Part shown: positions 10,301 to 61,238 of the stretch, piece by piece
Position numbering within the stretch: position 1 is the first letter of the stretch
Layout: every line of letters begins with the position of its first letter
From: Proteromonas lacertae
Lineage: Eukaryota > Sar > Bigyra > Opalinata > Proteromonadidae
Assembly (NCBI GenBank): GCA_002245135.1
Contig: NGBS01000013.1
Location: 1-64,000, forward strand
Length of the DNA: 64,000 nt
Direction: 5' to 3'
The notes under the pieces: model-generated
Databases searched by the model: none
The model's input: the letters and a program-made list of their open reading frames with translations, nothing else
Told to the model about the DNA's origin: nothing
Position numbers and translations under genes: made by a program

Positions 10301-13300
10301 GGAAGAAGTATTTTTAAATTCAGCAAAGATTGAAGATGCATTAGTTGCTCAAGAAGTAATAAAAGATAGAGAATCAAGGACATCAAGAGTAGAAGTGCAA
10401 AAAGAATATCGTCAATATAATAGAGCTAGTGCTGAGAAAAAGAATATGTTTATGATTCATTTTGGAGCATTATTAAAGAAGAGAATTTTATATATTAAAA
10501 GAGATGTGAAAGGTATTTTGTTTCAAGTTATTGTTCCTGTTGTTGTGATGGCAATTGGATTGTTGTTGATGGGAATTGATTTTATTACACAACCACCAAT
10601 GTATATCTATTATTATTATATTATTTATATTATTTTTTATAGTTATGCAATGAATACCCATGATTATAACAAGAAGATTGAAAATGCAACTGATAGATAT
10701 AAAACTCAATTTCCATTTGATAAAGTAACAAATCCAGCTTTTAGTACAGTTTTTGATCACTTGAATAAGAATGATGTTGTTCCTGTTTCGGTAGACACTT
10801 CTTTGTATTATACAGATGAAACTTGTATGCATGAGAATGCTTTTAAAACATTGACTGATGAAGAAAAGAAGAGAAATTGTGCAATTGTATATAATTATTA
10901 TTTAGTTTATGTTTGTAATATTTTTAGTTAAATGCCAATACGAATTATGCAGTTCCATTATTTGGAATGTATGAATATCTTTTATCAACAATGTCCACAT
11001 ATGAATCAACACGTTATTTAGCTGGTGTAGAAGTTCCTGATTTAGAATCAAATGGAATAGTATCTTATATCTTTGTAAATACCTCAAGTGGACATGGAAG
11101 TTCAATTGGTTTGAATTTACTGAATGAAGCTCGATTAAAAGAATATAGTAAAAATTCTAATGCAGTGTTAAAGACATCTGGATCTGTATTGCCATTTACA
11201 TCCAATCAACTCAAAACAGCAGAAGGAATTAAGGGATTAAGTTCACCAATGATTATGTTATTAGCACTTGCATTTATTCCAGCTTATTATGTCTCATTTT
11301 TAGTGAAAGAAAAAGAAGTTGGAGTGAAACATCAACAACTGATTAGTGGTGTTAGTTTATCAGCTTATTGGACTTCTACATTCGTGTGGGATATAGTTTC
11401 TTATATTATACCGTATATATATTACAATTAATTTATATTTAGATGTGTATTTGGTATTGTATTTATGTATATATTCAATCTTAAAGCATTTAAAGATCAA
11501 ATTGGTGCTGTGATTGTAGTTTTTATTCTTTATGGATTAGCTATAGCTCCTGCTACCTATTTTGTATCATATTTCTTTAAGAATCATTCAACAGCTCAGA
11601 ATATTGTTTTATTCGCTAATATATTCATGGCAATCTTCATGACTATCGATTTCTTATTAAGTATGTTAGATTCTGCTTGTAGAGCTGGTGAAGTAATAGA
11701 GTATATTATATATATAATATTCAATATTTATAATGCTTAGATGGTTCTTTATGCTATTTCCAGGTTTCAATTTTGGTATGACGATGATGAGAATTGGAAT
11801 GTTTGAGCAATTGCCAATGATGAATTCAATGTGTGATATGTATCATGATATTCCAGTAGATACTTCAAAATTTAATGCAGATCATAATGCATTTGAATTT
11901 GATATGATTGGAAAGTTTATTCTATTCTTGGGATTAGAAGTTATTGTTTATGGTTTCTTGGCTATTCTTGGTGATTATGTATTATCTTATCCACTGTTAA
12001 AACAGAAAATACTTCCAGACAAAGATTTGCCAATGAGAGAATATGTAGATGATGATGATGTAAAGAAAGAAGCTGAAAGAATAATAAATAAGCAACCACA
12101 TGAAAGTGGAAAAGAAGAAACAATTCAAATTCGTGGATTAAGAAAAGTATGGAATAAAAAGAAAATAGCTGTTGAGAATTTGAATGTTGGATTAATTCCT
12201 GGAACTTGTTTTGGTTTTTTAGGAATAAATGGAGCAGGTAAAACCACAACATTAGAAATGTTAAGTGGAGATATAATTCCAACGAAAGGAACAGCGAAAA
12301 TCAACAAATTGGATATATTAACAGATCAAATTGAAGTTAGAAGATTATTAGGATATTGTCCACAATTTGATGCTTTATTAGATTTACTAACAGTAAAAGA
12401 ACATTTATATTTATATGCCAAAATCAAAGGTGTTCCAGATGATATAATTGAAGATGTAATAAATGAAAAGATCGATCAAATGGATTTAGGAAAATTTGTG
12501 AATAAAACAGCTGGATCATTAAGTGGAGGAAATAAACGAAAGTTGAGTGTAGCAATTGCCTTAATAGGAAATCCTCCATTAGTATTCTTAGATGAACCAT
12601 CAACAGGAATGGATCCAGTAGCTAGAAGACATATGTGGGATATAATAGCTGATATAACAATCAAGAGATGTGATACAACAATAATCTTAACAACTCATTC
12701 AATGGAAGAAGCTGAAGCATTATGTACATTGGTTGGAATAATGGTAGGTGGAAGATTGAGATGTTTAGGATCTTTACAACATTTGAAGAATAAATTTGGT
12801 CAAGGATTTATGTTAGAAGTAAAATTGAATGATAATAAAGAAGAAGAAATGCAAGAAATAATAGAAAAGATGAAAAGTGTAAATGGTGATAGTTTAGTAA
12901 AGAATGATATAGAGAATATATGTAAAGAATTAGGAAAAGAAAGTCGATTTGATTTAATCAATGAAGTAGATAGTGGTTGGTCAATATTTTGTGAATTGAA
13001 TAAACATGGATTAATAAGTAAAAGTTTCTTTAGTGATTGGTGGAAGTTGGAAGATCGAGTAGATGAATTAAATGGCAGTTTAAAAGAAATGTTTGATAAG
13101 ATTGAATTATTAGAAAGACATGATAATTACTTGAGATTTAAGATTGATGTGAATGATATAAAGTTGGGTGAATTATTTGGTTTAATCGAAGGAAAGAAAG
13201 AAGAATTATCAATCAAAGAATATAGTTTTGCACAAACATCGTTAGAACAAATCTTTAATTCCTTTGCTTCTCAACAAGAAGAAGAAACTGGAGAAGTGAG

Positions 13301-50390: not shown

Positions 50391-51981
50391 TCATTCTTTA
50401 CTATCATCAACCAATTTCTCTTCTTCACTCTCATCTTCGGCACTGCTACTTTCACTATCATCCTCTTTTTCATCATCCCCTTTCTTATCATTGAAATCAC
50501 TATCTTCTTCATCATCCTCTTCTTCCATACCATTATCATCATCATCACCTGAATCAGCTTGCAATTCCTCATCAGTTGATTTCGTTACTTTCAATCCTTT
50601 TTCAATCAGAAAATCATTTACTTTTTTATATTCCTTTCTAGCGATACCAGCAAATAAAAATATTTTTGGTTGCAATGTACCAACTTCTCTTGCTGTGATT
50701 TGAATATCAAAAGTCTGTGGACCACCTCGATTAGAATAACGTTGATATTGAACACTAGAAACATCATCAAATCTAATAAAAATAGGAGGTTTATGAATAA
50801 AAATAAAACAAGTTTCAAATAGGTAAAGTAATCCTCCATTAGAGCCATACGCACATCTAATGCATGAAGCTCCTTCTGAGTTCTTAAATGCACCTGGAAC
50901 ATATACTTTCTTACTAGTAATATGTTTAGTTAATTTACCAACTATAGTATGAACTTCGCCTGTCATATTGTGGCTCAATTTGGGGTATTTGGTTGACAAC
51001 TCCTCATCACTTAAATTCAAAACGATTACTCTGTTTTCACGTGTAAATTGCATGACTAAATTATTATACTGTTGATTTCCTTGTCTAATGGGAACTAACA
51101 GACTAATAACATAAGAAACATGTCGACCATCATCTTCAGGTAAGAGATAGAAACTATGAATATTTTTATACATGATTTTGTAATCATATGTTTTGCCATG
51201 CATTCTAAGATAGTGTTCATACATTTCTACATCATATCTACCACGAGGAGTCATGAAGTAACAGAACGATTCATCTAATGAAACAATTGCATTTCCTGTT
51301 TCACGAGTTATTCCAGCTTTTTCTAAGATCATTTGGTGGATTTTGTATGCTGGACAGGAGGTTAAATCTCTCTCTTCACCTGGTGGAATATGGAATACCA
51401 TTGATACCACATTTTCAGTTTTTCTATCACTTGTATCATCTTCTGCAAATTGTAATTCTAATTCATATTTACTTGGTAATGCTGCTTGTGTAATATCACT
51501 TAATGGAACGTCGAATAATAACTGGTCACTATTCTTAAATACTAAGGTATTTTCACCATTTGGACCTGTTACATCAATATCACCCCAATTACAACCTGTC
51601 GAACACAATATCTCTTCTCCAAAGGCAACGTTCTTATCTGAAAGGTATTTCTTTATAACATCAACACTCTATTATATGAAATAAATTAAAATATATTTTC
51701 TTACATGAAATCCATCAAATCGAATATCTCCTTGATCTTTTAATGAAAATCGCACTTGAAATAAATCACCTATTCTATTCCACACAGCTTCAGTAATATC
51801 TGGTACATTGATCTATGTTCATTATTAGACTCATAATTATATACTTTTATATTGCTATTAGCTGATAACCACACAATAGCATCTTGATCTATCTTTAATT
51901 GACCTGGTATCTATGACATATTATAGTACTTTATACTCTTGATTGACCAGTTAAGTAAATCTTCTCATAGGATTGATTCAT
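50391..51981 (-). CDS. SSRP1: FACT complex subunit SSRP1/POB3
   Basis: Histone chaperone subunit of FACT, acting on nucleosomes during transcription and replication. It starts MNQSYEKIYLTGQSR at 51981. Four exons are read: three short ones, with introns after QSR, SNIK and DGFH, and a long one (to 50391) with VAFGEEILCSTGCNWGDIDV. Typical blocks include KYELELQFAEDD, VSMVFHIPPGE, LDESFCYFMTPRGRYDVEMY, IMYKNIHSFYLLP, and the PH-like middle domain with GAFKNSEGASCIRCAYGSN. The C-terminus is highly acidic (GDDDDNGMEEEDDEEDSDF) and has no HMG box, as in yeast Pob3. Length is about 500 residues. Confidence 0.92.
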
Positions 51982-52046: not shown

Positions 52047-52120
52047 GTCGTGATGGTGTAGTTGGTTATCACGTATCCTTAACACGGATAAGGTCTCGGG
52101 TTCAAACCCCGATCGCGATA
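52047..52120 (+). tRNA. tRNA-Val(AAC)
   Basis: A 74-nt cloverleaf. The acceptor GTCGTGA pairs with TCGCGAT (two G-U pairs), discriminator A. The D arm is GTGTAGTTGGTTATCAC. The anticodon stem TATCC/GGATA has loop TTAACAC with anticodon AAC, and the T arm TCGGG/CCCGA has TTCAAAC. It is followed at once by a T run. The 3' half and 860 bp downstream are repeated at 59263-60160, the retrotransposon 5' region. Confidence 0.96.
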
Positions 52121-52421
52121 CTTTTTTTTTCTTTTTTCTCTGCTTTTTATAATTCTATAAATTTAGTTCAAATAATAATTTTAAATATTTAAGTAATATA
52201 ATTTTGTTTAAATTTATTATGTGACATTTTTGCTATGAATTTTATGAATAATAGTCTATACAATCTATATGTCAGTGAAAATATTGTAAAATGTTTAGCA
52301 TCAACGTTTATTTTGCTTGTGTACATCATTTAAATAATATTAAGTGAATTATGAGAAATAAATAAAAATAGAAACGAATATAATTATTTATTTTTATGTA
52401 ATTATTTCTGATTTATCAACA

Positions 52422-52445
52422 ACATTTACAGCTAATTATGTATGA
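52422..52445 (+). repeat. Motif ACATTTACAGCTAATTATGT, 302 nt downstream of tRNA-Val
   Basis: This motif lies 302 nt past the tRNA-Val 3' end. It recurs about 302 nt past the tRNA-Val fragment (59602) and, on the minus strand, about 296 nt past the third tRNA-Val (60847-60869). Confidence 0.55.
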
Positions 52446-52604
52446 AAAAAGTGTTGCTGAAGCATTCATCAAATACAACATACCAACCTCACCTATTCAA
52501 AGTCAAACACAAATATTTACATATACACCAATTTCACCAATTCAAAGAGTAAATAAAGCAAACTGCAAAAAAACTAATCTACCTCACCAATCAATAAACT
52601 AAAT

Positions 52605-52904
52605 CTAAATATACACTAAATACCCTAAATATACACTCGCCTGCAGCACAAATGTTGAATAGATTGTAAAATTGTATAAATTTGGCTTGGTATAATAAGT
52701 ATCTTGAACAATTGAAAATTTATTAGAGTATAATCCTAACAGTATATTATAATATTGTTGTAAATATCGTTCTCTACCAGGTTCTGCTTTGATGATATCA
52801 ATAACATAATCAGCTAATTCGTTTACTAAAATTTTAGCTATGAATATTGACAGAACATCATCTAACCAAAGAATTATTTTATGATGAGAATCTCTAAAGT
52901 ACAT
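52605..52904 (-). CDS. Antisense ORF in retrotransposon 5' region
   Basis: A 99-codon ORF (start MYFRDSHHKIILWLDDVLSI) overlapping, in antisense, the probable start of the sense ORF. It is conserved in the second copy (59794-60072) with very few changes, and differs mainly at its end because of a small indel. Composition is protein-like (LVNELADYVIDIIKAEPGRE). No domain is recognised. Conservation may simply reflect recent duplication, so expression is unproven. Confidence 0.35.
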   Translation of the reverse strand: MYFRDSHHKIILWLDDVLSIFIAKILVNELADYVIDIIKAEPGRERYLQQYYNILLGLYSNKFSIVQDTYYTKPNLYNFTIYSTFVLQASVYLGYLVYI

Positions 52905-55900
52905 ATAAAAAAAATATATATTTATATAATAAGCTTATTAATCAATCTATTATCCCAATATCTCAAGAAAAACAATATCAAACCAAACCCCATAATTCCA
53001 ATTTAATATCATATAGTCAATATTTCATTTATATTATAATAGTTCCTTATGATACTAACAATGGCAATACAATTTACTTATATGTAGATCATAATATCAA
53101 CCCATTTCAATGTTTGATCCTGAATTACCCTTACAGAACCATTATTAGCTTGAATTTAGATTATATTTACCCTTGTCATACCAAAACATATTTCATTAAG
53201 AGCTCCACTCAACTTAATTCCTATAACCCTAAGAAAACATTATACTCTCAATATCGTGCCATCCTTATATTAATCCCTGCTTATATAAATAATAACAACA
53301 CCTCCTGTTTATTTGCATACTTCAGTAGTAACTCACTGCAAAATTCAATCCTGGATTATGCTTACAAAATTACTATTAGCTTAAATTTAGATTATCCTCA
53401 CCTCAACAATGATACATTATATTTTATTCTGCTCATATTTTGGAATGCTCAACTAATTAACAAATGGAAGCCTTCAGACTACATTCATAACATTATTATA
53501 GACCATGACTATACCAGAATCATCCCTTATACCTTATTAAAACCTTATCACAAATATCACCATAAATCAATCAACCTTCATAACTGTTACCCTAATTACA
53601 TTAATACATTATCCTCAAATAAGGTATCTAGTGTAGTTTTCTCACCAATATTATCAATGACAGATATATTAACATATTATTCCAATTATTGTGCATCCAT
53701 TAAAGTTCAGATAACACAAATATCAATCTTACATTACAAAGGAGGGAATAAGGATAAAACAGCTAGTAGTTTAAACAATACACAACAAGATATTATACCC
53801 CTTAATAACTTAGGTAATACTTGTCATATCTCTTCAACATTCCAGTTACTTTATTCCATTGATACATTTAAAACTATTTGTAATAATGAGATATACACAA
53901 ATTTAGAACAAGAGTCAATAGTAAAGGCTTTTAACAAAGTAATTACATCTAAAAATATCACACCCTTAGCAGAGATTCTACATTTAGATATTAATGAACT
54001 TGGCAATGCTTCAGATAATATCATTATCATATTAAACTCCTTCAAAAATATTTTGGATGGTAATATTGAAATAAAAACACAATACTCTTGTGCTAGCTGC
54101 AAGTGTAAATATGATGAAATAATAACAAGAACATCTTTTCAAATTATTCTAAATGGATGCCTTTCTGTCCTTAATATGGAAAAGTTAACTAACTATAAAA
54201 AATGTAATATACACTGCAAACAGTGTAACAAGGATTCTACAACAATAACAAAATCCATTAATTCATTTCCAAAAACCTTAATCATTAACATCGAAAGAAC
54301 ATCACACGATCAAAGAATAATTTTTCAAAGATCCCTAACATTCAATAAATCTACTAGTTATACATTAACTTTTTTAGTTTTATTTACTGGTGATTATACT
54401 GGTGGACATTATACAACAGCAAGATATATACAAGGTAAATGGATTAATATTAGTGATAATAATATCTATCACATTGATAATATTTATAGTATGACAAAGG
54501 AAGTAGTACTATTATTATATACAAAAGAAGATCCTTCAACATTAACAAAAGTTAATACACCAATTTCAATAAACAACCCAACAAGTAACATAAAACCTAA
54601 TCCAATTCAAACAGCTATGCTTCGTACAGATGGAGGAGCAAGAAATAATCCTGGTGAAGCAGCAGCAGCAGCTTATATAGTATTCAATGATAAAGAATAC
54701 AAATTATATTCATACTTTCCTAAAGCAACCAACAATGAAATGGAATATACAGGTTTAATCATTGGATTAAGAAAAATTAAAGAACTAAAAATCAAAAATG
54801 TAGATATAATACTAGACTCAATGTTAATAGTTAAACAATTAACTAATAAAGCAAATTGTAACCATCCGAAACTTCAAAAATTAAAAGAATTAGTATTAAA
54901 AGAACTATCGGAAATAAACTTTACAATAACACACCAAAAAAGGAAATACAATGTAGTTGCTGATGGATTAGTTAACACATCAATAGATAATAAATCATCA
55001 TGTATTGAAGATATTAACATAAATGACATCCTTAACATTATTATCCAACCAAATAGTAATAAAAATAACATTCCAGATACAATTTTAAATCCACCTAAGA
55101 GAAGTTATAATACAATCAAATGCTCTATCTGTAACAAAGAATATAAAGCAAATTGGATACAAAGACATATTAATACAGTACACAAACACATATTCAAGAT
55201 TGTCAAAACTCCAGATATATCACCAAATATAAACAATTCAACTGAGTTAATAGATGAACTTAATAAGACTATTATGGACAATATACCTATTCAAAGTCAA
55301 ATACAAAATATTAAAAACAATGAAATCAAAATATTAAGTGAAGATAAACATGTGAAGACTATTTCCATTAATAATGAAATATTTAGAAGAGACATTATAT
55401 CTCAGCCTAATCCAACAGAAGAAAATAATAAGTTTATATATAGTGAAAGTACCAACTCTAATACCAATATTAATGATTCTATAAAATGCAGATTTTGTTC
55501 TCGATGTTTTAAATCAAAAGTAAGTAGAGGTCAGCATGAACACCAAACCCACCCAAATGAGTTTTATGAAACATTTAGAAAAGACAACCCTTTCAGTAAT
55601 CCTAGACCAGAGTTAAACCCAAATACTATAAAACCAAATGAGACAGAAGTAAAAATAGATAAAACAAACAAGAAAAAATCAATATTTCAAAAATTAGAAG
55701 TTTCAGAAGATGAATTTTGGAAAGGTTTTTACTTCCCAGAACTATATCAATTACAGATAAAACCTGAACTTGATAAATATGAATTTATCAATCAAATTAC
55801 ATACCCTACTGATCCAAAAAGAAGAAATCAATTACTAAAGAAATTAACCAAAAAACTTATACCAATCTTTAACTGGTTAAGAATTCTTCCATCAGAATCC

Positions 55901-56092
55901 ACAATATCAACTAAAGGTATAACAGAGGAAGACTTCATGTTTATTAACCAACTATATAACAAAACAATTTCAATAATCCAAACAACTATGAACCCTACAT
56001 CAAATAAAAAACCAGATTATAGTAAATTAAACTATAAATATCAAAGAAATGAGTATGATAACAACAATACATTAAAAGAGCGTCAAAAATAA
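52898..56092 (+). CDS. Retrotransposon polyprotein, N-terminal part: USP-like peptidase, RNase H, zinc fingers
   Basis: Open from 52898 to a TAA at 56090-56092; no in-frame ATG occurs in the first 700 nt. The likely start is ATGATGAGAATC at 52881, which is in frame in copy 2 but needs a one-base correction in the A/TA run here. A peptidase C19 (USP) Cys box PLNNLGNTCHISSTFQLLYS (codon about 237 from 53114) pairs with CxxC/CxxC zinc ligands (CASCKC; CKQC) and His box GGHYTTARYIQGKWINISDN. An RNase HI domain follows: LRTDGGARNNPGEAA, NEMEYTGLIIGL, VDIILDSMLIVKQL. Two C2H2 fingers are CSICNKEY...HINTVH and CRFCSRCF...HEHQTH. Together these suggest nucleic acid binding, primer/RNA removal and removal of ubiquitin-like tags. 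Confidence 0.82.
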   Translation, partial: STYKKNIYLYNKLINQSIIPISQEKQYQTKPHNSNLISYSQYFIYIIIVPYDTNNGNTIYLYVDHNINPFQCLILNYPYRTIISLNLDYIYPCHTKTYFIKSSTQLNSYNPKKTLYSQYRAILILIPAYINNNNTSCLFAYFSSNSLQNSILDYAYKITISLNLDYPHLNNDTLYFILLIFWNAQLINKWKPSDYIHNIIIDHDYTRIIPYTLLKPYHKYHHKSINLHNCYPNYINTLSSNKVSSVVFSPILSMTDILTYYSNYCASIKVQITQISILHYKGGNKDKTASSLNNTQQDIIPLNNLGNTCHISSTFQLLYSIDTFKTICNNEIYTNLEQESIVKAFNKVITSKNITPLAEILHLDINELGNASDNIIIILNSFKNILDGNIEIKTQYSCASCKCKYDEIITRTSFQIILNGCLSVLNMEKLTNYKKCNIHCKQCNKDSTTITKSINSFPKTLIINIERTSHDQRIIFQRSLTFNKSTSYTLTFLVLFTGDYTGGHYTTARYIQGKWINISDNNIYHIDNIYSMTKEVVLLLYTKEDPSTLTKVNTPISINNPTSNIKPNPIQTAMLRTDGGARNNPGEAAAAAYIVFNDKEYKLYSYFPKATNNEMEYTGLIIGLRKIKELKIKNVDIILDSMLIVKQLTNKANCNHPKLQKLKELVLKELSEINFTITHQKRKYNVVADGLVNTSIDNKSSCIEDININDILNIIIQPNSNKNNIPDTILNPPKRSYNTIKCSICNKEYKANWIQRHINTVHKHIFKIVKTPDISPNINNSTELIDELNKTIMDNIPIQSQIQNIKNNEIKILSEDKHVKTISINNEIFRRDIISQPNPTEENNKFIYSESTNSNTNINDSIKCRFCSRCFKSKVSRGQHEHQTHPNEFYETFRKDNPFSNPRPELNPNTIKPNETEVKIDKTNKKKSIFQKLEVSEDEFWKGFYFPELYQLQIKPELDKYEFINQITYPTDPKRRNQLLKKLTKKLIPIFNWLRILPSESTISTKGITEEDFMFINQLYNKTISIIQTTMNPTSNKKPDYSKLNYKYQRNEYDNNNTLKERQK

Positions 56093-59023
56093 AGGCTAAA
56101 CAAGCTCCAACAATACAAGAGTATACTTGATAAAATTAAATCAAACCCAACAAATCTTAATTATTACATAAAGAAACTATGGATTGATCATCAAATTTAC
56201 ATCAAAGAAAACACAACAAAAGATATTACACAAGTTATAAATACACTTACAGAAGAAGTAGAAGAAATAATATTAGAAAATAACTTGAATAATATTGGAT
56301 TTACAAATAATTCTTCATCCCTAGATGATGAATACAAAAACCACAGAAAAAGTTTCATATCAAAATTATTTAATGATAATCAGAGAGATGTAAAACTAGA
56401 TATTAGAAAGATGGAAAAGATGTTTAATATTCTAAATAATAGCAACATAAACTGGAACACTCAAATCGATACTCCAAAATTCTGGAAAGACATCCAAGAA
56501 TTGTATCCATCAGAAATAAATATGGACATGAACATTACAATAAAAGATTATATGGATGCTATAAGGCACACAAACATCAATTCTGCAGCAGGTCCAGATG
56601 GTATACCATACGCTATTTACAAAGATTGTGAAATATTATCAATAATAATGGTAAAATTCTTTAACTTATTTACAATAAGCGGAAACATCCCGACATGGTG
56701 GAACAAAACAAAGACTATATTAATTGATAAAATGAAAGAAAATGTAAATGAAGTAGGAAATTGGAGACCAATAAGTCTTCAATGTACCATTAGCAAAATA
56801 TATACCAAAATTATAAATTTTAAACTGATGAACACAATAAAGACCCAAAAGATTCTTGAGCCTGAACAAAAAGGATTCATTAGTAAGATTGCTGGCTGTG
56901 AAGATCATATCTTCACAGTCCAGTCTATTATTACAGACATGAATTCAGGATTAAGTGAGAACCAAGTAACCATGACACTCCTAGATCTGCAGAACGCATT
57001 TGGCTCTATACCCCATAATATTATTCAGAAAATATTAACTATAATGAAATTTCCTAAATCATTTATAAATATAATAAAAGCATTCTATACCAATCCAACA
57101 ATGAATTTATATATCAATGATAGATATTCAAATACAATCAAAATTCAAAAAGGTGTAAGACAAGGAGATCCTATATCTCCCTTAATATTCAATCTAATGA
57201 TTGACCCATTAATCAAATTAATCAAACTTAACAATGTAGGTTATAAATACAAATATGACAATTCCTTAGAAGTAGTATGTTCACTCTATGCAGATGACTT
57301 AATATTATTTACAAACACAATAGAGGACATGAAAAAACAACTGAACACTGTAAATGAATATTTAAACTGGAGTAAACTAAAACTAAATCCAGAAAAATGT
57401 GAAACATTTTACAAAAGAAAAACTAGTACTAAAACATACTATAGTAACCCGAATTTGATTATTAACAATCAATTTATACCATATGTTAAAGCTGATAGCA
57501 ATTTCCACTACCTAGGATCATTACTACATATAAAGAATTCTATATTCCAAAGAGATGATTTTACAAATCAAATTGAAAATATTAAAAAGAAAATTAATAA
57601 ACTTAACCAAATTAATATACATCCAGCTTACAAATTAAACATACTAAGAACTTACATCATTCCAACGATAAAATTTTCATTAAGAAATCAAACAATCAAT
57701 CTGACAGAATTAGATAAGTTAGATAAATTCATTACTAATAATATTAAAATGTGGATAGAATGCAATCAAATCACATCGAAAATATTTCATCTTAAATGGA
57801 AAGATGGAGGACTTAATATACCACTATTAAGTGAACGATACTTAATAAACAAAGCAGTGTTATTTTTAAAACAATATTACAATCCAGATCCTAAATTAAG
57901 AAAGATAATTCAATATAAATTATTCTGTATATTTAAACAGAAGAAATTAAAATTATACAATAATGATAATAATGAAATTCAATTTCTCAGATTTTCTATG
58001 AACAATCAATTAGAACTCCTGACCATAGATGATAAACAGACAGTAAAAAACTTAAAAGCAACCATTGTAGACAATTTAATCCACCTTCAAAAACACCTCA
58101 AAATCCAAATCATAGAAACTAAAGGAGGTGAAATATTATTTCAAGACAAAGATGGATTAATTATGAACAAAGTCAGTAATGATTATCAATCAGCATCACA
58201 ATTATTTAAGAATTTGTCACAACATCTGTATAGTATACATAAAGCAGATTGGTGTAACAATGAAGATATAAAACTACAAAATATTAAATCAACATTCTTA
58301 CAAAATAATAAAATCAACAATAAATGGATAATTAATCCGAAAGGAATAAGTGCAAGACAGTATAACATAATGTGGAAAATCAGAACAAATACAATGATAT
58401 GTCAAGATAATCTTAATATTTGGAAACTATCAAAAACTAAAATATGTCAAAGATGCAAGAAAGATAAGGAAAATTATATTCAGAACAACAAACATGTACT
58501 ACAAAGTTGTAAACCACTTTTGTTATTATACAGAAAACGTCATAATAAAATATGTTACAGATTACACAAATTATTTGAATATTCAAATAATTTCAAATGT
58601 TTTAGTGATATTACAGTAAAAAGATTTATAAATCATTTAAGTCCTAATAATGAAAAGCTAAGACCAGATCTAATATTAATTAATAAAAATATTAAGCAAA
58701 TGATCATAATAGAAGTAGGTATTGCTTATGCAGAGGTTAAAAATAATATATCATCAATGATAAACACAAGAAATATGAAATATAATAAATATAAATCATT
58801 ATTGGATGAATTAGAATTAAATGGCTGGCAAACGAAAATGCATGTGATCATAATGGATTCAACGGGAATTATTGATAATACATCATATAAAGAGATTACT
58901 AATATAATTATTCAATATACTAATATTAAATTAAAATCAATTACCTCAATTATACAAAATATTCAATTAGATATGGTATATTCTGCTATAGAGATGTTCC
59001 ATAGAACAACAATGATATGGTAA
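56093..59023 (+). CDS. Retrotransposon polyprotein, C-terminal part: reverse transcriptase and REL endonuclease
   Basis: Continues the upstream frame without shift after the single TAA (QK-stop-RLNKLQQYK), so the two parts form one reading frame of about 1,970 codons from 53114. No good ATG start is near the junction; the first candidate is weak. RT motifs are GPDGIPYAIYK, WRPISLQCTISKIYTKII, EQKGFISKIAGCEDH, LLDLQNAFGSIPH (catalytic Asp), GVRQGDPISPLIFNLMI, SLYADDLILF (YADD) and LNPEKCETF. The C-terminus has the R2-type knuckle CQRCKKD ... HVLQSC and an endonuclease core RPDLILI ... MIIIEVGIAYAE. It would carry out target-primed reverse transcription at a specific site. Confidence 0.88.
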   Translation, partial: RLNKLQQYKSILDKIKSNPTNLNYYIKKLWIDHQIYIKENTTKDITQVINTLTEEVEEIILENNLNNIGFTNNSSSLDDEYKNHRKSFISKLFNDNQRDVKLDIRKMEKMFNILNNSNINWNTQIDTPKFWKDIQELYPSEINMDMNITIKDYMDAIRHTNINSAAGPDGIPYAIYKDCEILSIIMVKFFNLFTISGNIPTWWNKTKTILIDKMKENVNEVGNWRPISLQCTISKIYTKIINFKLMNTIKTQKILEPEQKGFISKIAGCEDHIFTVQSIITDMNSGLSENQVTMTLLDLQNAFGSIPHNIIQKILTIMKFPKSFINIIKAFYTNPTMNLYINDRYSNTIKIQKGVRQGDPISPLIFNLMIDPLIKLIKLNNVGYKYKYDNSLEVVCSLYADDLILFTNTIEDMKKQLNTVNEYLNWSKLKLNPEKCETFYKRKTSTKTYYSNPNLIINNQFIPYVKADSNFHYLGSLLHIKNSIFQRDDFTNQIENIKKKINKLNQINIHPAYKLNILRTYIIPTIKFSLRNQTINLTELDKLDKFITNNIKMWIECNQITSKIFHLKWKDGGLNIPLLSERYLINKAVLFLKQYYNPDPKLRKIIQYKLFCIFKQKKLKLYNNDNNEIQFLRFSMNNQLELLTIDDKQTVKNLKATIVDNLIHLQKHLKIQIIETKGGEILFQDKDGLIMNKVSNDYQSASQLFKNLSQHLYSIHKADWCNNEDIKLQNIKSTFLQNNKINNKWIINPKGISARQYNIMWKIRTNTMICQDNLNIWKLSKTKICQRCKKDKENYIQNNKHVLQSCKPLLLLYRKRHNKICYRLHKLFEYSNNFKCFSDITVKRFINHLSPNNEKLRPDLILINKNIKQMIIIEVGIAYAEVKNNISSMINTRNMKYNKYKSLLDELELNGWQTKMHVIIMDSTGIIDNTSYKEITNIIIQYTNIKLKSITSIIQNIQLDMVYSAIEMFHRTTMIW

Positions 59024-59057
59024 TAATATTATAAGATTAATATTATAATATATATTT

Positions 59058-59072
59058 AAAAAAAAAAAAAAA
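59058..59072 (+). other. Poly(A) run at retrotransposon 3' end
   Basis: Fifteen A residues lie 35 nt after the REL stop codon, taken as the 3' end of the element. Confidence 0.55.
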
Positions 59073-59262
59073 TTATATATTCTTATACTTATAATATTAG
59101 TGGACAAAATAGAAAGTATATAAAATCTCTAAATGTTGCTAATTAAACATTAAAATAATCATATTAATAAACATAAATTGACTTTGAATGTAAGGTGATA
59201 ATTGTTCAATATAATTAAATAGCTAACTAAAAGGCGATCGGGCATCCCTAATTGTTACTTAA

Positions 59263-59299
59263 ACGGATAAGGTCTCGGGTTCAAACCCCGATCGCGATA
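59263..59299 (+). pseudogene. tRNA-Val 3' half
   Basis: From ACGGATAAGG to GATCGCGATA this matches the 3' half of the tRNA-Val at 52047-52120 (anticodon stem 3' strand, variable loop, T arm, acceptor 3' strand). The 5' half is replaced by only weakly similar sequence, so no cloverleaf forms. It marks the edge of a duplication or of a retrotransposon insertion at the tRNA. Confidence 0.85.
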
Positions 59300-60160
59300 C
59301 TTCTTTTTTCTTTTTTCTCTACTTTTTATAATTCTATAAATTTAGTTCAAATAATAATTTTAAAATATTTAAGTAATATAATTTTGTTTAAATTTATTAT
59401 GTGACATTTTTGTAATGAATTTTATGAATAATAGTCTATACAATCTATATGTCAGTGAAAATATTGTAAAATGTTTAGTATCTACGTTTATTTTGCTTGT
59501 GTACATCATTAAAATAGTATTAAGTGAATTATGAGAAATAAATAAAAATAGAAACGAATATAATTATTTATTTTGATTAATTTTTCTGATTTATCAACAA
59601 CATTTACAGCTAATTATGTATGATAAAAGTGTTGCTGAAGCATTCATCAAATACAACATACCAACCTCACCTATTCAAAGTCAAACACAAATATTTACAT
59701 ATACACCAATTTCACCAATTCAAAGAGTAAATAAAGCAAACTGCAAAAAAACTAATCTACCTCACCAATCAATAAACTAAATCTAAATATACACTAAATA
59801 CCACTCGCCTGCAGCACAAATGTTGAATAGATTGTAAAATTGTATAAATTTGGCTTGGTATAATAAGTATCTTGAACAATTGATAATTTATTAGAGTATA
59901 ATCCTAACAGTATATTATAATATTGTTGTAAATATCGTTCTCTACCAGGTTCTGCTTTGATGATATCAATAACATAATCAGCTAATTCGTTTACTAAAAT
60001 TTTAGCTATGAATATTGACAGAACATCATCTAACCAAAGAATTATTTTATGATGAGAATCTCTAAAGTACATATAAAAAAAGATATAAATTTATATAATA
60101 ATCTTATTAATCAATTTATTATCCCAATATCTCAAGAAAAACAATTTCAAAACGCAACAA
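59300..60160 (+). mobile_element. Truncated second copy of retrotransposon 5' region
   Basis: About 860 bp highly similar to 52121-52980: the 5' UTR, the antisense ORF and the first codons of the sense ORF. Small indels distinguish them; copy 1 has an extra 12-13 bp near 52620. Similarity ends after the codons for IPISQEKQ. Farther on, the short ORF reads LQYSSFHTNYIYLSLDLKD, only loosely like the repeated N-terminal motif of copy 1, so this copy is probably internally deleted or degenerate. Confidence 0.8.
59794..60072 (-). CDS. Antisense ORF, second copy
   Basis: A 92-codon ORF, nearly identical to 52605-52904 over 88 residues and ending FVLQASGI. See the first copy for description; coding status is uncertain. 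Confidence 0.3.
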   Translation of the reverse strand: MYFRDSHHKIILWLDDVLSIFIAKILVNELADYVIDIIKAEPGRERYLQQYYNILLGLYSNKLSIVQDTYYTKPNLYNFTIYSTFVLQASGI

Positions 60161-60289: not shown

Positions 60290-61164
60290 AAATGACCATT
60301 ACAGTGCATATCCACTTTATTTTCAATTGAAGGCTATATTTGCACTTTACAGCAATTGTTGAAGGGCCAGAGGTTAAGTTTATGATATTAGAATTGAAAA
60401 AAGTCTTCTTAACGCTCAACGGCGCATTTAGCTCAACGGCGCACAACAATTACTACATATCGTGGTAAAATTGAATAATATTGGTTGGATTGAAGAATTG
60501 TGCAAATGAGCACTTCCCCTACAGGCTAAATATATATTTAAGTTGTTTGTAAGAATTGTAATGGACTGGGATTTATTTTGTAGGCCCAGGTTGATATTTT
60601 GAAATACATGTTAAATGTGTATATTTGACTGAACTGAAGACGCTAAATTGATAACATAAATATTTACTAGGTATTAAGATGAAATTTGTGGTCTTTGATA
60701 CTAATTGTCTTATGAGGTTCTTTAATGGTTTGAGTTTTGCTTTTTATTAATTCTTTATTTTATATATTATATTTGTTTGTTATATAATTATCTATTAATC
60801 GTATAATTTTCAAACAAAGGTTAAAGTCATTATACAACATTATGATTATACATAATTAGCTGTAAATGTTGTAATAAAGCAGAAAAAAATAACATTCAAC
60901 TATATAGTCGTTTCAATTTCATAATTTTTGTTATAAGTTAAATAACTTTGTTTAAACTGTATTTATTTACAACAAAAACGTGTATATGAAATATATTAAA
61001 AATTAAAATCCACTATTATTCCATTCCTACTAATTTATTGAATAACCGTTTAAAAAATATAAACCTATCTACTTTATTTCATTTTATTCATTTACTATGA
61101 AATAAAAATATTTAAATAAATCTAAAACATAATAGGAAAAAGAGTTAAAAATAGAAAAAAAGAG
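60290..61164. other. Non-coding stretch with retrotransposon-related motif
   Basis: No supported gene. It contains a direct repeat AGCTCAACGGCGCA near 60415-60448 and an inverted copy of the tRNA-Val-associated motif at 60847-60869. The latter lies about 296 nt downstream of the minus-strand tRNA-Val, so this may be a decayed element remnant or an ancestral tRNA flank. Confidence 0.4.
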
Positions 61165-61238
61165 TATTGAGATCGGGGTTTGAACCCGAGACCTTATCCG
61201 TGTTAAGGATACGTGATAACCAACTACACCATCCCAAC
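61165..61238 (-). tRNA. tRNA-Val(AAC), second gene
   Basis: 74 nt on the minus strand. The acceptor GTTGGGA pairs with TCTCAAT, discriminator A. D arm, anticodon stem-loop (AAC) and T arm are identical to the gene at 52047-52120; only the acceptor stem differs, with compensating pairing. It is intact and has no retrotransposon ORF beside it. Confidence 0.95.

Follow-up and report, generated by a model that had tools for sequence, protein, structure and literature searches.

Can a retrotransposon carry its own deubiquitinase? The question is raised by a 64,000-nucleotide stretch of the Proteromonas lacertae genome, here called the window (positions 1 to 64,000 of contig NGBS01000013.1, forward strand; C104:1-64000 in the genome analyzed, 50.2 Mb in 1181 contigs). 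It holds an element that is almost certainly a site-specific retrotransposon lacking long terminal repeats (non-LTR) and of the restriction-like endonuclease (RLE) type, with a domain of the ubiquitin-specific protease (USP) type upstream of RNase H, zinc fingers, reverse transcriptase (RT) and RLE. The parts of the window copy are as follows:

52873-53113, + strand: 5' part of the element copy, whose first 110 bp also occur at ~60041-60151
53732-53749, + strand: HYKGGN, a Gly-Gly just ahead of the USP domain (speculatively, a possible cleavage site)
53801-54520, + strand: USP-type (peptidase C19) domain
53807-53824, + strand: oxyanion Asn (53807-53809) and nucleophile Cys (53822-53824)
54089-54226, + strand: zinc ligands, CxxC (54089) and CxxC (54215), invariant in five of five elements
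54401-54457, + strand: catalytic His (54407-54409) and Ser-Asp pair (54452-54457), the His and Asp invariant in five of five elements
54623-54970, + strand: RNase H domain (PF13456, 55.7 bits)
55121-55183, + strand: C2H2 finger 1 (sequence motif)
55487-55552, + strand: C2H2 finger 2 (sequence motif)
56090-56092, + strand: in-frame TAA of the window copy
56741-57517, + strand: RT, YADD from 57287 (PF00078, 127.9 bits, residues 217-475 of the frame from 56093)
58445-58860, + strand: CCHC knuckle and RLE (RPD, E, K..KY), by motif and invariant columns, end approximate
59024-59262, + strand: 3' untranslated region (UTR) with an A-run at ~59058-59072 and GCGATCGGG at 59234-59242

The domain order, which the initial annotation had proposed, is borne out by Pfam and motif inspection: Pfam places UCH (PF00443), RNase H (PF13456, RVT_3) and RT (PF00078) in that order along the window copy, and RNase H is followed by two C2H2 fingers, RT, CCHC and RPD..E..K, where the fingers, CCHC and RLE are called at motif level, no profile there exceeding its cut-off. 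The RT is of non-LTR type by its PF00078 match, and the best Protein Data Bank (PDB) matches of the full protein are R2 proteins. The RLE columns RPD..E..K..KY are invariant in an alignment of five elements (below), and no match to the apurinic/apyrimidinic endonuclease (APE) family PF03372 was found in the 2055-amino-acid frame of the intact copies up to E 1.

Is the upstream domain a USP? The UCH profile matches window positions 53801-54520 with 47.0 bits in the genome search, the translated window open reading frame (ORF) with 44.6 bits, and the frame of an intact copy (C398, below) scanned alone with 49.4 bits, against a cut-off of 23.9. The motifs named in the initial annotation are present: a Cys box NNLGNTCHISS (53804-53836), the CxxC pairs at 54089 and 54215, and a His box GGHYTT (54401-54418), followed by KWINISDNN at 54437-54463, so that the third triad position is a Ser, then an Asp. 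The predicted fold of the domain matches the USP fold, as had been proposed for checking, and no Ulp1 domain (PF02902) is listed for the element frame up to E 1. The profile match, the fold and conservation among distant relatives place the USP assignment beyond chance. The active site looks intact for a deubiquitinase, and the domain is predicted to be enzymatically active.

Could the union of USP and RT be an assembly chimera or a chance fusion in one copy? The 5' junction of the window copy is indeed odd (below). Near-identical copies were found by RT and USP genome searches on six small contigs (C398, C399, C437, C438, C893 and C980), and in C398 and C437 the element reads through 2055 codons as one uninterrupted frame, whose UCH match in the genome search scores 51.9 bits in both; the C398 frame alone is matched by UCH, RNase H and RT. 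The same order occurs in separate database proteins as well as in these two intact frames, so we judge a chimera or chance fusion to be refuted, with next to no probability left to it. Other genomic copies also keep the USP region: seven of the 13 USP stretches (those of the array contigs, described below, plus the window) read through 246 residues without a break and have all eight critical residues, and the remaining six are frame-broken or ended by the contig end.

Relatives were sought in three protein searches, which gave 113, 14 and 7 proteins. The first found P0002 and P0001, the latter 49% identical across RT and RLE; P0114 and P0115 came from the second. The third, queried with the alignment of all five elements, was limited to scoring the 7998 candidates with most words in common, and its 7 matches brought no further USP element. 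The USP in the four relatives was recognized in their sequences and not in precomputed Pfam lists. When a USP profile was run against all 133 retrieved proteins, only P0001, P0002, P0114 and P0115 passed inclusion, all of which are members of the profile. These relatives bear on the possibility that the USP is a captured host fragment and a functionless passenger. The genome does hold 134 UCH matches, a number that counts element copies and exon pieces and takes in multi-copy host proteins, and a related element without a UCH match exists (C826, below); both would fit such a capture. Against it, the active-site and zinc residues are kept in the elements even where RT identity is just 39% (P0002), and identity to P0001 in the USP (44%) is near that in RNase H (50%) and above that in three of four linkers. 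We consider a functionless passenger improbable.

In a 48-row RT tree, built of rows without named reference families so that its clades carry no family names, the five USP elements and C826 (a row with 28% of its columns filled) form one clade (100/100). Its neighbors are 13 elements in which no USP matched, joined to it at 92/96 (not starred). A separate clade of six rows, four of them labelled Ulp1 and five Caenorhabditis by name, is supported at 100/99, and elsewhere in the tree P0014 (JAB) pairs with P0126 (Ulp1) at 100/98. P0014 (source jgi) has an RT, an RLE-like end and a C-terminal AMSH-type JAMM domain at residues 1270-1443 (PF01398, 61.2 bits; STAM-binding protein, E 5.9e-58), in one member only. 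It thus resembles the window element in joining a deubiquitinase to an RT and an RLE-like end, and differs in that its deubiquitinase is a metalloprotease of another family, at the opposite end of the protein and in another RT clade.

Where does the element insert? The features that bear on this are as follows:

52047-52121, + strand: intact tRNA-Val(AAC) gene, the apparent target, anticodon 52081-52083 (ARAGORN)
52122-52872, + strand: host flank, not element, repeated at ~59301-60040 (direct repeats D1-D5, junction alignment)
59263-59300, + strand: 38-bp copy of the tRNA-Val 3' half, the target-site duplication
61164-61238, - strand: second tRNA-Val(AAC) gene, empty in the window (ARAGORN)

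By the same repeats and junction alignment, element sequence in the window runs from near 52873 through 59262. The interval first assigned to it was therefore misplaced at both ends: its start at 52121 is wrong, the bases from 52122 to 52872 being host flank, and its end at 59072 is too short. Beside the target tRNA lies a frame for an SSRP1/Pob3-like FACT subunit (50391-51608, - strand) with no HMG box listed in it.

The canonical arrangement is seen in C399, where the SSRP1 flank and an intact tRNA-Val(AAC) gene are followed directly by the element 5' end, which starts with a T-run. Units of 6.56-6.65 kb (joint-to-joint distances) lie head-to-tail and are separated by the 38-bp copy of the tRNA 3' half, and at the right array end in C398 the 38 bp are followed by host flank again; C437, C438, C893 and C980 hold units only, without flank, and probably belong to this one array. 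A 26-base pattern from the tRNA-Val 3' half occurs 15 times in the genome (one mismatch or fewer allowed, none seen). Four occurrences lie in intact tRNA-Val genes (two genes, each on two contigs) and the other 11 are orphan halves, every one of them directly after an element 3' end, with the next unit following in eight cases and host flank in three. A joint in C438, seen by blastn, is outside these 15. The duplication begins at the base after the anticodon AAC, and the element very probably targets tRNA-Val(AAC) genes.

The 5' junction of the window copy differs from the canonical one in C399 and the array, and recombination or a chimeric assembly could account for it. In two cases, around 5'-truncated copies, a ~0.83-0.9 kb flank including the tRNA 3' half is repeated in place of the 38 bp of full-length array units: window 52084-52982 with 59263-60151, and C398 7603-8430 with 10933 to ~11760. 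These long duplications would fit an aberrant second-strand step or an assembly switch alike. The ~0.9-kb repeat was considered as an LTR and rejected, as it consists of tRNA 3' half and host flank; by junction alignment the repeats flanking the element are target duplications and not LTRs. The window breakpoint falls in the 110-bp stretch common to the element 5' end and the flank (52873-52982 and 60041-60151), and the flank locus is a possible source of the element's 5' end. The 110-bp stretch is also partly antisense to a 98-codon open frame (59794-60090, - strand). The small open frame over the 110-bp repeat gave no Pfam match (C398 version) and no PDB match.

Do related elements join at the same position? 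In C398 the second tRNA-Val site is filled by a 5'-truncated relative of 60% protein identity, followed by the tRNA 3' half. Another relative, in C826 (34% identity over query residues 16-450, with RNase H and fingers), has its end in a tRNA-Gln(UUG) gene, at AATCCAATAATCC, the first base 3' of the TTG anticodon. A 26-base pattern of the tRNA-Gln 3' half has eight exact matches, in seven intact tRNA-Gln genes and the C826 joint. The joint position is thus the same in three element lineages and two tRNA species. Upstream of the C826 RNase H (L055, 5380-6000) the sequence looks, by eye, rich in inverted and direct repeats, which may explain why the USP is missing there.

We consider it fairly probable that the locus as a whole is explained by an RLE retrotransposon that targets tRNA-Val and whose USP works in cis on its own complex. 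The RLE would nick the tRNA-Val target immediately 3' of the anticodon, target-primed reverse transcription by the RT would copy the element RNA at the nick, and the second strand would be cut at the 3' end of the tRNA to yield the 38-bp duplication, as the junctions suggest. A first-strand nick followed by second-strand cleavage is the established manner of R2-type elements. Insertion would spare the tRNA and supply its own T-run; a T-run is a terminator for RNA polymerase III. Because the upstream tRNA is left whole and the target is partly restored, later insertions could build a head-to-tail array. The USP would shield the element's own RT-endonuclease complex until integration by taking ubiquitin, or a tag resembling it, off that complex. 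Being part of one polypeptide with RT and RLE, the USP has in this complex its simplest substrate, with host factors at the insertion site as the main rival, and the occurrence of Ulp1, USP and AMSH-type JAMM separately in RLE elements favors a selected role for tag removal, whatever the substrate. Architecture, catalytic residues, predicted fold, conservation in distant relatives, target and duplication are observed; the cis-protective role, in which activity, substrate and benefit are all deduced, is put forward tentatively, as plausible and somewhat short of probable. The functional proposal of the initial annotation, that ubiquitin may be stripped from element proteins or chromatin factors, is consistent with the conserved active site.

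Several observations weigh against this explanation. The window copy is defective: its ORFs 53114-56092 and 56285-59023 share one frame that is split by the single TAA, and the start Met of the intact copies corresponds to 52881 in the window, out of frame with the USP. P0001, P0002 and P0114 taken singly have no Pfam UCH match up to E 1, and P0115 has no UCH in its precomputed Pfam list. In single PDB searches P0001 (E 0.005) and P0002 (E 0.001) match USPs weakly and P0115 matches no USP at E≤0.1, so the USP identity of these three depends on the alignment and the profile. The C826 relative has no UCH match in the genome search; either the USP domain is dispensable or that copy is rearranged. 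Finally, the substrate may be a tag other than ubiquitin, or something other than the element's own protein.

Might the USP instead act at the insertion site on host factors of chromatin or repair (for instance ubiquitinated histones, PCNA or FANCD2-like proteins), easing access to the target or mending of a half-finished insertion? The same protein holds the target-site endonuclease, so the deubiquitinase would be brought to the site, and OTU and Ulp1 domains of DNA transposons have been proposed to engage repair (available part of the Ginger paper, PMC2836005). The nearest solved structures include USP12/46 and USP1, with ranks less than 1 Z unit apart; such a tie is silent on the substrate, and we think action on host factors rather unlikely. 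A further alternative is that the USP cleaves its own polyprotein after the preceding Gly-Gly (HYKGG in the window family, FLGG in P0001) and frees an N-terminal ubiquitin-like piece. The two members of one subclade both have a Gly-Gly ~25-30 residues ahead of the Cys box; however, the N-terminal parts are not detectably related (309 of 1000 shuffles reach the score) and P0115 has just ~20 residues before the Cys. A ubiquitin-like N-terminal domain was looked for and rejected, as the sequence gives it no support, and self-cleavage has little probability.

How does the element compare with known systems? NeSL of nematodes, also an RLE non-LTR element, carries a Ulp1 (C48) protease and not a USP (C19), its target is the spliced-leader gene and not a tRNA gene, and NeSL-like Ulp1 elements form an RT clade separate from the USP elements. 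Dualen/RandI carry APE and RLE, whereas our frame has no APE match. Utopia (oomycete families), likewise of the RLE type, has RNase H ahead of its RT and sits in a small-RNA gene, but it targets U2 small nuclear RNA (snRNA) genes, and the available part of its description mentions no USP. For Dewa of zebrafish, like TRE and Dada an element tied to tRNA genes, the site is a spacer and not a gene, again with no USP mentioned in the available text. TRE and NLTR of Dictyostelids are also non-LTR elements at tRNA genes; according to the available part of PMC5911963 they belong to the L1 group and insert at a distance outside the tRNA, TRE5-A nicking with APE, unlike the window element, whose joint lies inside the tRNA and adjoins the anticodon. 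Dada has fixed sites inside tRNA or snRNA genes (PMC3706591, available part), but it is a DNA transposon of the DDE type and duplicates 6-7 bp, and that text mentions no USP. A USP-type domain in a mobile element is also found in the Trichomonas protein XP_001314237.1, a peptidase C19 fused to a transposase_11 transposase (PMC2836005, discussion, available part), which is a DNA transposase and not a retrotransposon.

RLE elements with a deconjugating protease are therefore known, and what is apparently new, to us at least, is the USP type together with the anticodon-adjacent joint. No USP or UCH domain in a non-LTR retrotransposon was reported in the titles and abstract openings among the matches listed; that search did not extend to Repbase or most subscription journals, so a precedent is possible. 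The element apparently brings a new cysteine-protease family, USP, to the non-LTR retrotransposons, through a fusion that one clade has conserved. Taken with Ulp1 in NeSL and an AMSH-type JAMM in another RLE element, this points to tag removal as a recurrent need of such elements. The long-standing question of what the proteases of RLE elements do becomes testable with a well-understood enzyme family and existing probes, and the anticodon-adjacent joint is an unusual site-specific target of relevance to targeting work.

Does the RNA help to find the target? In the 3' UTRs of the window element (element A) and of element B (C398 ~10883-10893), GCGATCGGG and TGAGATCGGGG, respectively, are reverse complements of the 3' terminus of the tRNA-Val variant that each element occupies. 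Dinucleotide shuffles do as well in 5 of 2000 cases for A and 2 of 2000 for B, and the duplex energies with own versus other tRNA are -21.9 versus -15.9 kcal/mol (A) and -28.1 versus -22.8 kcal/mol (B). The best match in C826 is 6 nt, with nothing comparable, and the motif of A fits its own target at one of the two positions that distinguish both tRNAs within the motif; for these reasons it remains a lead. That an RLE clade with its own deubiquitinase joins after the tRNA anticodon and finds its target partly by RNA pairing (9-11 nt of antisense), besides zinc fingers, is a doubtful proposition at present.

Six further UCH loci (C216, C630, C925, C855, C976 and C684; L049-L054) were considered as retroelements and rejected, since they have long UCH frames and no RT-like part is visible. 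They encode large host proteins, which we take to be Crinkler-like; three have GNPGCGK(S/T), resembling a P-loop, a fourth begins at GCGKS and so shows part of this motif, and two pieces start downstream of it. The element-USP profile found nothing among 14 host loci with default filters, and with filters off it matched six frames (best E 1.1e-8).

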